A stretch of DNA of 41,373 nt from a virus, in IMG/VR virus record IMGVR_UViG_3300007238_000001, positions 1-41,373 of that record; one strand, written 5' to 3'. The notes beneath the pieces are model-generated. The model was not told the origin of the DNA. It made no database searches and saw only the letters and a list, made by a program, of their open reading frames with translations. Below are positions 19,626 to 33,387 of the stretch, in pieces (the stretch's first letter is position 1; every line of letters begins with the position of its first letter). The position numbers and the translations under genes are program-made.

Positions 19626-20879
19626 ATGTCAATTCAAGAGTCAGCACTTAACGACGCCCGCGCGGAGTGGGTGCCGGAAACGACAGTCGGAGAAGCACCG
19701 AGCGACCCAGATTTCAAGCGGTTTAGTGACTATCTCGCCGACGTACCCGGTTGGGATGGTGGGCCTGATATAGCCGAAAACAACGCCGTAGGGTCTGGTG
19801 AAGTTGTCGAGATTACTCGTGGGTCTGAAGAACACACGTTCACCATGCAGTATTGGCTCCAGCGATCCCCAGTTGACGGAAGTGGGAATCCCGTTGACCC
19901 TATTGCAGTCCCGATTACGCACGACTTTGACGGCGAACTGGAGAGCCACACAATCGTCTTCCGGCGTGAAACAACGTCTGGAGGTAATGACGGCGCAGGC
20001 TTTCGAGCGTATACCGTTGGCCTTGGGTGCAAACCAATCTCTTCAACGATCCCCGGCGACCCCGGTGAAAGTTCCCCACAGAGTCTTGAATTAGAGTACC
20101 AGGCTGAATACGGTCGGACGCACGTTATTCATCAACCGAGTAGTTCAACCACCGTCGATATTGAGAACACGGGGACTGAAGAGGTTGACGTAACGGTTGA
20201 AGACGAAGGTGCGAGTACCACCTCTACTGAAACCGTGGCTGGTGGGGCAACCGTCTCAACGACCGAGAGTTATAGTGATATTGACGCTATCTATATCGCA
20301 AGCGGAACCCCGGACGGCACGATTAATGTGACTGACGGCAGCGGCACAACGCTCCTCGAAGGCGGCCTTCAAGGGACGAGTAGCACCGACCCGGATTATG
20401 AGGTTGGTATCCCCCCGCTCGGAAGTGGCAGTCGTGGCTCTGCGATCAGCACCGACCCCGAGCGATTCCTTGGACTCAACACCGACGTAACCCGTGGCGG
20501 GAGTAGCCTTGCTGAAAGGGTGCATGGCTTTGACTTCACCTGTGAACTGGAAAGTAGCCAAGAAGCCGTAACCGGAACCAGACACCCGCCGGTTGATGAA
20601 GGCGTTAGGACGGCAAGCGTTGACGTTGACGTAGCCGGGCCGTTTGAATCCACGACACAGATTCGGGAGTTCTTCCAGGGTGTTGAATCCGACGTGGTGC
20701 TAACGCTTGGTGGGCCGAATAGTAGTTCTGGAGTTGCGGATATTACGCTCACCGACGCGCAACTCACCGACGTTGACGAACAGACCTATGGAGCGGGTGA
20801 CAGTAACGTGATTTTCGGCACGACCTTTACAGCCCAGTCAAATACCGGAAATGCAGTCTCAGTATCGAATACAACGTGA
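19626..20879 (+). CDS. major tail (tube) protein with inserted Ig-like domain
   Basis: A 417-residue protein upstream of the tail chaperones, the expected site of the tail tube gene. The start (MSIQESALNDARAEWVPE) and beta-rich body with QYWLQRSPVDGSGNPVDPI fit a tube fold. A serine/threonine-rich insert at about 170-260 (STTVDIENTGTEEVDVTVED then VAGGATVSTTESYSDI) resembles an Ig-like surface domain. The end (NVIFGTTFTAQSNT) is typical of tail tube proteins. About 400 aa is long for the family, in line with the extra domain. Confidence 0.8.
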   Translation: MSIQESALNDARAEWVPETTVGEAPSDPDFKRFSDYLADVPGWDGGPDIAENNAVGSGEVVEITRGSEEHTFTMQYWLQRSPVDGSGNPVDPIAVPITHDFDGELESHTIVFRRETTSGGNDGAGFRAYTVGLGCKPISSTIPGDPGESSPQSLELEYQAEYGRTHVIHQPSSSTTVDIENTGTEEVDVTVEDEGASTTSTETVAGGATVSTTESYSDIDAIYIASGTPDGTINVTDGSGTTLLEGGLQGTSSTDPDYEVGIPPLGSGSRGSAISTDPERFLGLNTDVTRGGSSLAERVHGFDFTCELESSQEAVTGTRHPPVDEGVRTASVDVDVAGPFESTTQIREFFQGVESDVVLTLGGPNSSSGVADITLTDAQLTDVDEQTYGAGDSNVIFGTTFTAQSNTGNAVSVSNTT

Positions 20880-20885
20880 TAACCC

Positions 20886-21338
20886 ATGAGTGACAAATAC
20901 GGACAAGACATTATTGATTCGGACGGCGACGACATTCTCGAAGGCACATGGGAATGGCAGGGGAGAGAACCAACTGTTGAAGTGCGAAATATCTCCTATG
21001 ATGATCAGGTATTGGTGCAACGCTATGGGTCGCTCATGGCCGAACTTGCACATATCCAAGAGCGCCTTGAAAACGGGGAGGATGTATCCGAGCGCGAAAG
21101 GCGCCATATCGAAGACCAGATAGAGCGCCTTGATGATTTCAGTTGGGAAGATGAAGACGACCAAAACGACTTTATCAAAGAAATTGTCGATCATGTGATT
21201 GTCAAACCCGAGATTGACACGTCGGACACGTCACTTGATAAAGTCGTGGCAGTTGTTGAGGGGGCTGTCTCTACCCTCCAAGAGTCTAATTCGGTTCGTG
21301 ACGCCAAGGGTGATATGCCCGTTGATACCCCAAATTAG
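20886..21338 (+). CDS. tail assembly chaperone, G-type frame
   Basis: A 150-residue acidic helical protein just upstream of the tape measure, in the position of lambda G. It has VEVRNISYDDQVLVQRYGS and AHIQERLENGEDVSERERR, then a charged helix. The frame ends in TAG at 21336-21338, immediately after a CCCAAAT slippery heptamer, so a fraction of ribosomes should shift -1 and make the longer G-T fusion. Chaperones of this kind coat the tape measure during tail assembly. Confidence 0.85.
   Translation: MSDKYGQDIIDSDGDDILEGTWEWQGREPTVEVRNISYDDQVLVQRYGSLMAELAHIQERLENGEDVSERERRHIEDQIERLDDFSWEDEDDQNDFIKEIVDHVIVKPEIDTSDTSLDKVVAVVEGAVSTLQESNSVRDAKGDMPVDTPN
21329..21335 (+). promoter_or_regulatory. 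-1 programmed ribosomal frameshift slippery site (C-CCA-AAT)
   Basis: In the G frame the codons read ACC CCA AAT TAG, so bases 21329-21335 are C CCA AAT, a perfect X XXY YYZ heptamer directly before the stop. Slipping one base back continues as TTA GAC CTT without a stop to 21583. The -1 frame is closed just upstream (TGA at 21323-21325), so the window for a shift is only about 10 nt and contains this heptamer. Confidence 0.8.
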
Positions 21339-21583
21339 ACCTTCCAGACAGAGCACAAGAGGCCCTTGAGATGAAAGTCCTAGTCAAAGAGTGGGGCATT
21401 AAACCGTGGGAGTTGGGCAAACTCACGACAAAGGACATTCAAAATATCGGGCTTGCGGAGCATACTGAAGCGTATATCCAGCAAGAAACCATGTCGAATA
21501 GCTCCACCCAACGCAGTGCAACCAATAGCAAAGAGTACCAAGACTTCAAGCAAAATGCAGAAAACAAATTCAGGATGAATTAA
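21335..21583 (+). CDS. tail assembly chaperone, T-type extension (reached by -1 frameshift)
   Basis: Read in the -1 frame after the slippery site, giving 82 residues (LDLPDRAQEALEMKVLVKEW at the start) and a G-T fusion of about 232. An internal ATG at 21371 could start a 70-residue version but has no strong start context. The segment VLVKEWGIKPWELGKLTTKD is the conserved-looking core, similar in pattern to phage T-domains, and the end is polar. The stop is just upstream of the tape measure. Confidence 0.75.
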   Translation, partial: LDLPDRAQEALEMKVLVKEWGIKPWELGKLTTKDIQNIGLAEHTEAYIQQETMSNSSTQRSATNSKEYQDFKQNAENKFRMN

Positions 21584-21585
21584 AA

Positions 21586-23328
21586 ATGCCAGATTTCTCA
21601 CGCTTGGCGGTGGCCGTGTCCGCGAAAGTCGCGCAATTCAATGCGGGGATGCAAACCGCCGAAGAAGCCGCGTCCGATCTCTCGCTTGCACTGCGACGGC
21701 TGAGTTTTGCGTCAGAAAGTGCGGATAGAGACATCGAATCACTTGGGCGGAGTGCAACTGCTGCAAGCGGGGGCATGGTCGCCTTTGGCGCTGGCACAGA
21801 AGGCGCAGGGTTTGCCGTTCGGGGTTTGAGTGCGTCAATCTTGTTATCCCTCATCCCGGCACTGGTTGCGCTCTCAGCAGCCTTAGCGCCTATTGTGGGG
21901 GCCTTGGGTGGCTTCGTCGGGGTTGCTGCCTCAATTGTCGGGGTGGGACTCTTACCAGCGATTGCAGCGATAGCGACGAATACGGAAGTGTTCAAAACCG
22001 AAGCTCAAAGTCTCCTCGACACGTTAGGGACAGAGTTCGCACCTGTTATCGAAGAGGCAACGACCGTGCTCTTGCTTCTCATGCGGTCCTTTAGAGATAT
22101 TATTCCTGAGCTTGTCCCCACGCAAGAGGCAATAGACGACCTTGGGTTATTGTTCCTCGAACTTGGGGAGTCGTTGATTGAACTGCTGCCGCTCTTTGCA
22201 GAGTTGGCAGTAACCCTAGCTCGTGAATGGCTGCCCCCATTTATTGAGTTTGTGCAAGACGTTGGCCCCGAGATTCCGGGTATGATCCAAGACCTTGTAG
22301 ACGTGTTTGATCGGATGCTACCCCGATTCGTCCGAGCGGGGCAGTTGCTAATGGACCTACTCGGACCCTTGACAGAGTTTGGCTTTACTGTCCTTGACGT
22401 GTTAGGCCCGGCACTCGCTGATCTATCGCAATTCTTGGAGAACGTTCTTCGGGACGTGAATAACATGGACCGAGGGATGCAAGAACTAATCGCTGGTGCG
22501 GCACTCTTGGCTCCGGTGATTGTTGGACTGGTTAGCTTTATCGGGCCTTTGAGTGGCTTAGTTGGTGTTCTCTCCAGTCTTACGGGGCCTTTGACTGCCG
22601 TTATCGGGGGGCTTGCAGCGATTGGCCTTGCCGGGATTGTTGCCTCAGTCGCGGCCTTAGCAACTAATTTCGGCGGATTGCGTGACGTGTGGGTGAACCA
22701 AGTCCTGCCAGCGATCAATAGAGTCAGACCTGCCTTAGAAGACGCCTTTGGTGCCTTTGCCGAAGGGTTTGATATGGAATCTATTAGACAGTCTGCCGCG
22801 CAGTTTGAACAGATATTCGCCAATCAAATCCAGAAAAACGTCGAAGCACTCAAACCCGTTCTCTCGGATATTCAAACGTTCTTAACCGATAACCAAGAAG
22901 AATTTAAGACGCTTGGCGCGGTCGCTGGTGAGACTGTGACATTCCTAATCCGTGTCTTTGGGGCCTTAGCCAAAGCAGGCGGAGTTGTCTTTAGGCAAGT
23001 TCTCATCCCGAGTATTCAAATCTTCATTGACGTGTTAGACGTGGCACTCACGAAGTTCATGAATCTTGTCGAACTCTTTAACGCCGTTGAGAGTGGCAAC
23101 TGGGACGCCGCTCTTGCTGCGACACAAGATTTAGCTCTTGGCGAAGGATCGACTCTCACGCAGTCTGTGGCCCAACAGACGGCCAGCACACAGCAAGTCG
23201 AGATTGTGTTAGACGAACAGACCGAATTTGTCGAAGCACGCTTTCGGGACACTGCCGAAGGGGTATTCTCCCAACAGAGCCAAAACCAGTATGACACGGC
23301 CCAACGCTTAGGCAACAGAAACCCATGA
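21586..23328 (+). CDS. tail tape measure protein
   Basis: A 580-residue protein placed after the chaperones. The N-terminus is helical (LAVAVSAKVAQFNAGMQTAE); hydrophobic segments follow at about 83-125 (SILLSLIPALVALSAALAPI onward) and 285-345 (with FIGPLSGLVGVLSSLTGPL), and the C-terminus is Q/E-rich. This is the usual tape-measure pattern. By the rule of thumb of about 1.5 angstrom per residue, the tail would be near 85-90 nm. It overlaps the hub gene by 4 nt. Confidence 0.9.
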   Translation: MPDFSRLAVAVSAKVAQFNAGMQTAEEAASDLSLALRRLSFASESADRDIESLGRSATAASGGMVAFGAGTEGAGFAVRGLSASILLSLIPALVALSAALAPIVGALGGFVGVAASIVGVGLLPAIAAIATNTEVFKTEAQSLLDTLGTEFAPVIEEATTVLLLLMRSFRDIIPELVPTQEAIDDLGLLFLELGESLIELLPLFAELAVTLAREWLPPFIEFVQDVGPEIPGMIQDLVDVFDRMLPRFVRAGQLLMDLLGPLTEFGFTVLDVLGPALADLSQFLENVLRDVNNMDRGMQELIAGAALLAPVIVGLVSFIGPLSGLVGVLSSLTGPLTAVIGGLAAIGLAGIVASVAALATNFGGLRDVWVNQVLPAINRVRPALEDAFGAFAEGFDMESIRQSAAQFEQIFANQIQKNVEALKPVLSDIQTFLTDNQEEFKTLGAVAGETVTFLIRVFGALAKAGGVVFRQVLIPSIQIFIDVLDVALTKFMNLVELFNAVESGNWDAALAATQDLALGEGSTLTQSVAQQTASTQQVEIVLDEQTEFVEARFRDTAEGVFSQQSQNQYDTAQRLGNRNP

Positions 23329-26995: not shown

Positions 26996-27933
26996 GTGGC
27001 ACGCCCGATGCAACCGGCGACGAGGGAGAGCGATTAGACGTTGACTATACCGTGCAGAATACAGGAGGCAGTACAGATACCCAAGATATTACGCTTGTTA
27101 TCAATTCAACACAGGAGGATATAGACACTGGGATTACCTTGGACGGGTCCGAAACCCATAGTGGGACGCTCTCATGGCAAACCCAAGATGGGGACGCCGG
27201 AACATATGGACTTGATGTGAACTCCGATGATGATACTGAAAGTCGGACAATAGAGGTTGAGACTGCAATACCCGACAGCGTAACATCGCGATTGCGGATG
27301 GATGAGGGTAGTGGATCGACGCTTAACGATAGCGTCGGGAGCGTTACTTCCTCATTGGTTAGCGGATCGTGGGTTAGCGCCAGTAAATATACCGGCGGCT
27401 TCGCAACTGATTACGACGGCGCAAACTCCTACTGGGCAACTGACTCGGAGATAGATATTAACGGTCAGTCGCAAGGGGTCGCAGGGTGGTTCGAGATTAC
27501 CGGTGGGGACGACCGTGGAGACGCGTTCAACGCCCGGACCGGAACGGGATCTGACGCTAGAGGGTGGGAGTTGCAGGTGCGCACCGACGGCGAGGTCCGA
27601 CAAGTCCACTACGATAGTTCGGGGAGCGCGTCTATTGTCTGCAGCTCCACCGATGACGCGGTGACGCTATCGCTCGACGGTACTGATTACTTCATCGCGA
27701 TCACGGTCGATGGCGACATGGCAAATCTGTATATCTGGGATAGCAGCCAGCAACTCGTCAACACAAGCGGCACCGGCGCGCGAGCGCAAACCACATCGCA
27801 ACCCTTTGAGGGGATGCGTAATGGGGCGGAGGGGCTCTATCTCGCCGGGCAAAACGACGACCCGCATTGGTCTGTGGACGCTGCCATCCCCGAGAGCGAC
27901 TACCAATCGATCTACGAGGGGACCCTTCGGTGA
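26992..27933 (+). CDS. tail fibre with CARDB-like and LamG/concanavalin A-like domains
   Basis: 313 residues. Residues about 8-93 look like a CARDB/Ig-type domain (ERLDVDYTVQNTGGSTDTQD). Residues about 100-310 fit a LamG-type lectin fold (YDGANSYWATDSEIDING, then GVAGWFEITGG, then YFIAITVDGDMANLYIWDS). It probably binds host surface glycans. From about 27270 on, base composition and codon use change (more AGC, TCG, CTC and higher GC than neighbouring tail genes), which suggests a swapped-in host-range domain. Confidence 0.8.
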   Translation: MSGTPDATGDEGERLDVDYTVQNTGGSTDTQDITLVINSTQEDIDTGITLDGSETHSGTLSWQTQDGDAGTYGLDVNSDDDTESRTIEVETAIPDSVTSRLRMDEGSGSTLNDSVGSVTSSLVSGSWVSASKYTGGFATDYDGANSYWATDSEIDINGQSQGVAGWFEITGGDDRGDAFNARTGTGSDARGWELQVRTDGEVRQVHYDSSGSASIVCSSTDDAVTLSLDGTDYFIAITVDGDMANLYIWDSSQQLVNTSGTGARAQTTSQPFEGMRNGAEGLYLAGQNDDPHWSVDAAIPESDYQSIYEGTLR

Positions 27934-27954
27934 GACACTCGGTGTCCGTGTCTC
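27932..27954 (+). terminator. stem-loop at the end of the tail module
   Basis: GAGACAC (27932-27938) and GTGTCTC (27948-27954) form a perfect 7-bp stem with a 9-nt loop that begins within the fibre stop codon (27931-27933). No following T tract. It marks the end of the long structural transcript; the next gene has its own TATA-like box. Confidence 0.5.
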
Positions 27955-28036
27955 TCAAGATAATCATCTGACAGGATTTGCCTTGGCTACTCTGTGGCCG
28001 CGCCCAGATACATCTCTACTTTCAACACGGGGCTTA

Positions 28037-28646: not shown

Positions 28647-29378
28647 GTGCTTCAATTCATTAGAAACCTGATTTGCCCCAAGAGGGAACGTGCATTACCC
28701 ACGTCAACCCCGGGGGTAGCGTCGATAACAACTACTGGAGAACCAACCGTTGACGTGGCGATTCGTAGCTCCAAAGAACTACGCGGAGAAAATGGCACAA
28801 TTCCCGAAGAGATGGCCGTTCTCTATTTGAGTCACTCATTAGACAAGATGAACTTCGGGTTTACAATTCGCTATGATTTTGAACCCATAACCCCACCCGA
28901 TAACATTTCAGGGTGTGGCGGTGAATCCTTTGATTGGTTTCGGGAGTTCGTTTCTGCATGGGGTAACTGTGCTTCGGACGCCAACCTACTCATAACGAAC
29001 GCAGACGGTGGTGGGTGTGGGATTTCATCTACTCCAGGGGTTTGCACCGTTCCGGGTAGAAACATCTCAGAACGCACGGAATACGTTTCTGAAGGGTCGG
29101 ATGGGTTTCACTCAAATATCCAATCTATCCTGCACGAGTTTGGTCACTGTCTCGGGGCACACCACGACCATGACAAAACTATGGAAGGGTTACAACACCC
29201 CGGACGGGCATGGGTCGATAATGGCGAGTATAGATACACACCGACGACTCTTGGCGGTGGAACGGTGAATAAGTGCGGTGAACGCGTCCCTGAAGAGCGA
29301 GATGAATATACGAAGATTCGTGTGCATGAGTTTTCTAATTGCGCCGAAGACGTGTTTCGAGAGTCGTTAGAAGACTAA
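28647..29378 (+). CDS. metzincin-type zinc metalloprotease
   Basis: GTG start at 28647; the overlapping ATG at 28645 runs into a stop. The 243-residue protein has HEFGHCLGAHH (about 163-173), the HExxHxxGxxH zinc motif of metzincins, and a methionine soon after (KTMEGL) that may be the Met-turn. Several cysteines (SGCGGES, GNCASD, GGGCGISS, GVCTVP, NKCGE, SNCAED) suggest disulphides and an extracytoplasmic place. It may cut host surface-layer or cell-envelope proteins during entry or release. Confidence 0.75.
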   Translation: MLQFIRNLICPKRERALPTSTPGVASITTTGEPTVDVAIRSSKELRGENGTIPEEMAVLYLSHSLDKMNFGFTIRYDFEPITPPDNISGCGGESFDWFREFVSAWGNCASDANLLITNADGGGCGISSTPGVCTVPGRNISERTEYVSEGSDGFHSNIQSILHEFGHCLGAHHDHDKTMEGLQHPGRAWVDNGEYRYTPTTLGGGTVNKCGERVPEERDEYTKIRVHEFSNCAEDVFRESLED

Positions 29379-33074: not shown

Positions 33075-33387
33075 TTCAACCGAAGACAAGAAGTTACAGT
33101 TTATTAGCCATCCGAACACCCGAACGCTACACATAGGCACGCGAGAACGTGGTGCTGAGTGTGGGCAAGTGAGTCAAGAGGGTTGGGCAAGCGTTGATGC
33201 CACAAATCAACTTGATGCAGTCCTGAACTATGCAACCCAACCGTGTCGAAAGTGCTTCACGCACGGATACCATGACCTACACCGAATTTATCTCAAAGAA
33301 CATACGTCAATACTCGTTGAGAAACCATTAGATGAATTGACAAAGACGTTACCGTGGGAGTTGTCGGAAGTGATTAACAATGACTAA
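33064..33387 (+). CDS. 107-residue protein with Cys/His cluster
   Basis: Overlaps the previous gene by 11 nt. It contains CGQVSQEGWASVDATNQ, then PCRKCFTHGYHDLH, suggesting a zinc site near the middle. The rest is alpha/beta and ends LPWELSEVINND. No family recognised. Confidence 0.65.
   Translation: MTNDSTEDKKLQFISHPNTRTLHIGTRERGAECGQVSQEGWASVDATNQLDAVLNYATQPCRKCFTHGYHDLHRIYLKEHTSILVEKPLDELTKTLPWELSEVINND

Follow-up and report, generated by a model that had tools for sequence, protein, structure and literature searches.

Are two small ORFs, lying among the tail genes of what looks like a haloarchaeal virus, joined by a -1 programmed frameshift after the fashion of lambda G/GT, the tail-assembly chaperone frameshift reviewed in PMC5009743? 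The question was raised by the first-pass annotation of a 41.4-kb metagenomic virus record from IMG/VR, whose whole length of 41,373 nucleotides is called the window here. Based on its sequence, we estimate at about 0.93 the probability that the locus produces a lambda G/GT-like chaperone pair by a -1 shift. This reading is preferred because five features proper to such an arrangement agree: the gene order, the slip site, the -1 direction, a second frame that is conserved while its start is not, and the recurrence of the same layout in independent haloviruses.

The locus and its slip site

The genes of the locus follow each other in the order tail tube, G, T, tape measure (Table 1). The first of them is probably the tail tube gene, judging from its position and its homologues: the PHROG family that it matches has no function named in PHROGs, and its product compares at 44% over 65% with the HATV-3 homologue and at 31% over 98% with the one of Hardycor1, both of which precede, as in the window, two small ORFs and a tape measure gene. 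The tape measure gene of the window also matches several other tape measure families. For the G and T proteins, no match to curated tail-assembly chaperone families was found in Pfam or PHROG, and the AlphaFold models were poor (pLDDT 47 and 55). Given that the tail-chaperone ORFs of phages have low sequence similarity to one another (PMC5009743), the missing family match is weak counter-evidence, and we infer from the position of the pair, and from the frameshift itself, that these are tail-assembly chaperones. Downstream of the tail genes, positions 28647-29378 match a reprolysin-like metallopeptidase (Pfam PF13688, 1.3e-7).

The window encodes an MCM helicase, its proteins are strongly acidic (pI about 4-5), and its tail relatives were found only among haloviruses. 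For these three reasons, and in keeping with what had been suspected at first, we conclude from gene content that the source virus belongs with the viruses of haloarchaea.

Inspection of the sequence gave GTT GAT ACC CCA AAT TAG as the zero-frame end of the G-like ORF. The -1 frame is open from 21326 up to its own stop at 21581-21583, which leaves positions 21326-21335 as the zone where a -1 shift can link the G and T frames, and an in-phase X XXY YYZ heptamer is present within this zone. The heptamer directly before the G stop, the limits of the -1 frame and the shift zone of some 10 nt were all recovered where the first-pass annotation had placed them.

Table 1. Features of the locus, and slip sites of its relatives (feature, position, strand, remarks)
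Probable tail tube gene	19626-20879	+	PHROG 34360, 1.6e-55; homologues; anchors the gene order
G-like ORF, zero-frame product	20886-21338	+	150 aa, acidic, pI 4.1
TGA closing the -1 frame 5' of the slip site	21323-21325	+	read from the sequence
Candidate slippery heptamer C CCA AAT, -1 shift site	21329-21335	+	in phase with ORF 20886-21338; relatives have G GGA AAC or G GGA AAT
T-like -1 frame	21329-21583	+	84 aa from the slip site
TAG stop of the G-like frame	21336-21338	+	adjoins the 3' end of the heptamer
Only early ATG in the -1 frame	21371-21373	+	AAG in the closest relative
Tape measure gene, 3' of the T frame	21586-23328	+	PHROG 1272, tail length tape measure protein, 8e-10
G002 slip site			G GGA AAC GGG TAG, in phase
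HATV-3 and L014 slip site			G GGA AAC TAA, in phase
Hardycor1 slip site			G GGA AAT, in phase
G013 slip site			G GGA AAC TGA, in phase

At such a site, most ribosomes translating the G-like ORF would terminate at the TAG. On C CCA AAT, a minority would move back by one base, so that the P-site proline tRNA and the A-site asparagine tRNA pair anew with CCC AAA. The slipped ribosomes would then read the -1 frame to its end and yield a protein of about 232 aa in which G and T are fused. As in lambda, the G portion may form a coat around the tape measure protein, and the T portion may bring in tail tube subunits. As for the earlier claim of canonical -1 frameshifting on an archaeal ribosome, the sequence layout fits it, while the slippage itself, like its frequency and the chaperone role, is what we infer from that sequence.

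A stimulating RNA element is an accessory to -1 frameshifting and is not strictly required. Folding the region 3' of the heptamer, where a stimulating structure had been suggested, revealed none that stood out from shuffled sequences or from the local background, whether in the window or among its relatives. About 15 bases 5' of the heptamer, at about 21305-21313, lies the Shine-Dalgarno-like stretch AAGGGTGAT, which pairs with the 16S rRNA tail at -10.2 kcal/mol, more strongly than 94% of the local stretches of the window (top 6%). It is found in the window only and is not shared by the relatives.

Recurrence of the site and rival explanations

Because the G-like protein, used as a direct query against IMG/VR and phage records, matched nothing, we turned to the tail tube, portal and MCM genes to find relatives. 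The tail tube gene led to Hardycor1 and HATV-3, and then to three IMG/VR records: G002 (3300017500_000008), the closest relative of the window, L014 (3300019926_000031), a near-copy of HATV-3, and G013 (3300046051_000034). A major capsid search gave no relatives, and scans of cellular genomes, not centred on haloarchaea, found nothing. The order tail tube, G, T, tape measure is common to Hardycor1, HATV-3 and the three records. Counting HATV-3 and its near-copy as one and including the window, five lineages have a homologous tail tube gene and a readable G/T region, and all five keep an in-phase slip site of the pattern X XXA AAY, with letters that vary. The -1 frames of the relatives are 78-101 codons long. 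In 4 of the 5 lineages the -1 frame reaches the tape measure gene directly, with a one-base overlap between its stop and the tape measure start in Hardycor1, HATV-3/L014 and G002; in G013 about 45 bases lie between the two.

Of the heptamer and the narrow overlap of the frames, only the heptamer pattern was kept throughout the relatives. The overlap is narrow in the window, G002 and HCTV-1, and this is not so in HATV-3 and Hardycor1; judging from these layouts, it is not a general feature of such sites. A stop codon stands directly 3' of the heptamer in the window (TAG), HATV-3 (TAA), G013 (TGA) and HCTV-2 (TGA).

How often would such a heptamer arise by chance? Across the genes of the window, an in-phase XXXYYYZ occurs at 24 of 9,643 codon positions, 8 of them with A or T as Y, and the expectation for a four-codon zone is therefore about 1% (0.3% with A or T as Y). 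When synonymous codons were resampled with the local amino acids fixed, the heptamer of the window arose in about 17% of cases. Since codon choice alone produces it this often, the site of the window taken singly is suggestive and does not prove itself. The same resampling at the same place in the four further lineages gave 9-20% each, and the product over the five lineages is below 1e-4. It is the recurrence of the slip site across lineages that makes the convincing part of this sequence-derived case.

The -1 frame itself was compared with that of G002. The G-like ORF and its G002 counterpart are 40% identical, and the T frames 46% overall, with conservation starting right from the heptamer (LDLPDRAQEALE in the window, VDLPDRAQQALS in G002). 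From the slip site to the ATG at 21371, 9 of 12 residues are identical (75%), and the differences in this segment are distributed 3/1/7 over codon positions 1, 2 and 3. Judged by this conservation, the -1 frame truly codes for protein and would be read across the slip site. Such an ATG could make T a separate gene of 70 aa, next to which the heptamer would be a coincidence, and GenBank does list the Hardycor1 and HATV-3 counterparts as separate genes. We consider this improbable, because protein conservation reaches past the ATG to the heptamer, and because the ATG is replaced by AAG in G002, where the first candidate start falls within the conserved block, at a distance of 27 codons from the beginning of the frame; the recurrence of the heptamer in five lineages also speaks against it. 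The second frame is conserved as a protein without a conserved start of its own.

The short distance between the frames and the Shine-Dalgarno-like stretch upstream would also suit translational coupling, in which ribosomes terminate at TAG 21336 and then enter the T frame by re-initiation or by sliding. Coupling appears even less probable than a separate gene, as G002 has no start codon in the conserved segment 3' of the stop, and the recurring heptamer is left unexplained. The metagenomic origin of the record brings to mind a sequencing or assembly indel that has split one continuous gene. This is the least credible of the three, and we rejected it: instead of a continuous frame, which would have spoken against a shift, independent relatives, cultured viruses included, have their frames split in the same way at the corresponding position, and their heptamers differ. 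A -1 frameshift into T remains by far the best account of the locus.

Further haloviruses and the asparagine codon

Other haloviruses were surveyed for similar sites. BJ1 (NC_008695.1, 33099-33284) has an in-phase G GGA AAC at 33099, near the end of gp61, followed by a -1 frame of 61 codons whose end overlaps the next gene (ORF62) by four bases; no join is annotated, and this is probably an unreported -1 site. In Humcor1 (MW344765.1, 11208-11438), an in-phase T TTT TTG would join HrrHm1_075 and _080, the -1 frame ending together with the annotated HrrHm1_080, and in HJTV-4 (OP374082.1, 21606-21821) the same heptamer is likewise in phase, and the -1 frame is open. Both lie in a small ORF downstream of capsid and neck genes, their -1 frames are 38% identical, and neither has an annotated join; from these layouts, both are probable unannotated -1 sites. 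No standard heptamer was found in HHTV-1 and HHTV-2.

The last codon was AAC or AAT in 8 of the 8 X XXA AAZ sites surveyed. The share of AAY among AAN codons in these viruses' own codon use is 0.49-0.75, and the chance of having only AAY sites is about 2%, as a product of per-virus fractions in which 0.6 was assumed for G013. HCTV-5, with G GGA AAG, is an exception to the pattern. It is in our opinion rather doubtful that haloviruses in general share a style of -1 site in which AAC or AAT occupies the A site, often with a stop immediately after it and with no downstream RNA structure, and the asparagine-codon pattern is a lead only. If true, such a style would bring these sites nearer to those of eukaryotic viruses than to those of E. 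coli phages (AAG), and would show what the archaeal ribosome and its tRNA-Asn prefer.

Comparison with known systems

Sites of -1 frameshifting have been proposed since 2013 for HCTV-1, -2, -5 and HVTV-1, as cited in PMC5009743 and PMC8211752, and that of HCTV-5 is G GGA AAG (PMC5009743). As in the window, these heptamers link tail-assembly chaperone frames, and HCTV-2 shares the stop directly 3' of the heptamer; the four viruses belong to families other than that of the window. The GenBank records of HCTV-1 and HCTV-2 carry a joined chaperone annotation. For Hardycor1, the G GGA AAT site (HrrHc1_110/115) was described in 2021 by its authors as a -1 frameshift (PMC7911831). Hardycor1 and the window have in common a homologous tail tube, the gene order, the -1 direction and AAT as second codon; Hardycor1 differs in having G GGA in place of C CCA, a heptamer five codons 5' of the stop, and a wide overlap of the frames. 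In the HF1 group and HSTV-2, the same genes are proposed to be joined by frameshifting, but in the +1 direction, at a TTT-CGC motif (PMC7230728, PMC8211752). A GGG TTT CGC resembling the HF1-group motif (PMC7230728) was seen in two Haloferuviridae, HFTV1 (about 1415-1444) and HRTV-4 (end of 27531-27998), near the end of the ORF that follows the tail tube gene, the next small ORF being in +1.

In the literature covered, to which the original 2013 halovirus papers do not belong, we found neither C CCA AAT among the published halovirus slip sites nor a report of a fusion protein from a haloarchaeal virus. The site of the window, as well as those of BJ1, HJTV-4 and Humcor1, appear to be unreported. 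The one archaeal gene for which -1 programmed frameshifting is firmly established is that of an alpha-fucosidase (PMC8037382, PMC8211752), and the haloviral cases of that literature rest on sequence.

The tail-chaperone frameshift seems to persist in several haloviral families, and GenBank records often split the pair. With their differing heptamers at one position, the locus and its relatives are suited to testing the archaeal ribosome. The heptamer of lambda is G GGA AAG, where the window has C CCA AAT; in contrast to lambda G/GT, the window comes from a haloarchaeal virus, its stop follows the heptamer directly, and its G and T proteins have no detectable sequence match to bacterial chaperone families. 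The window is not the first halovirus case, and is well supported as a new example of a frameshift that is known from phages and was already predicted in haloviruses.
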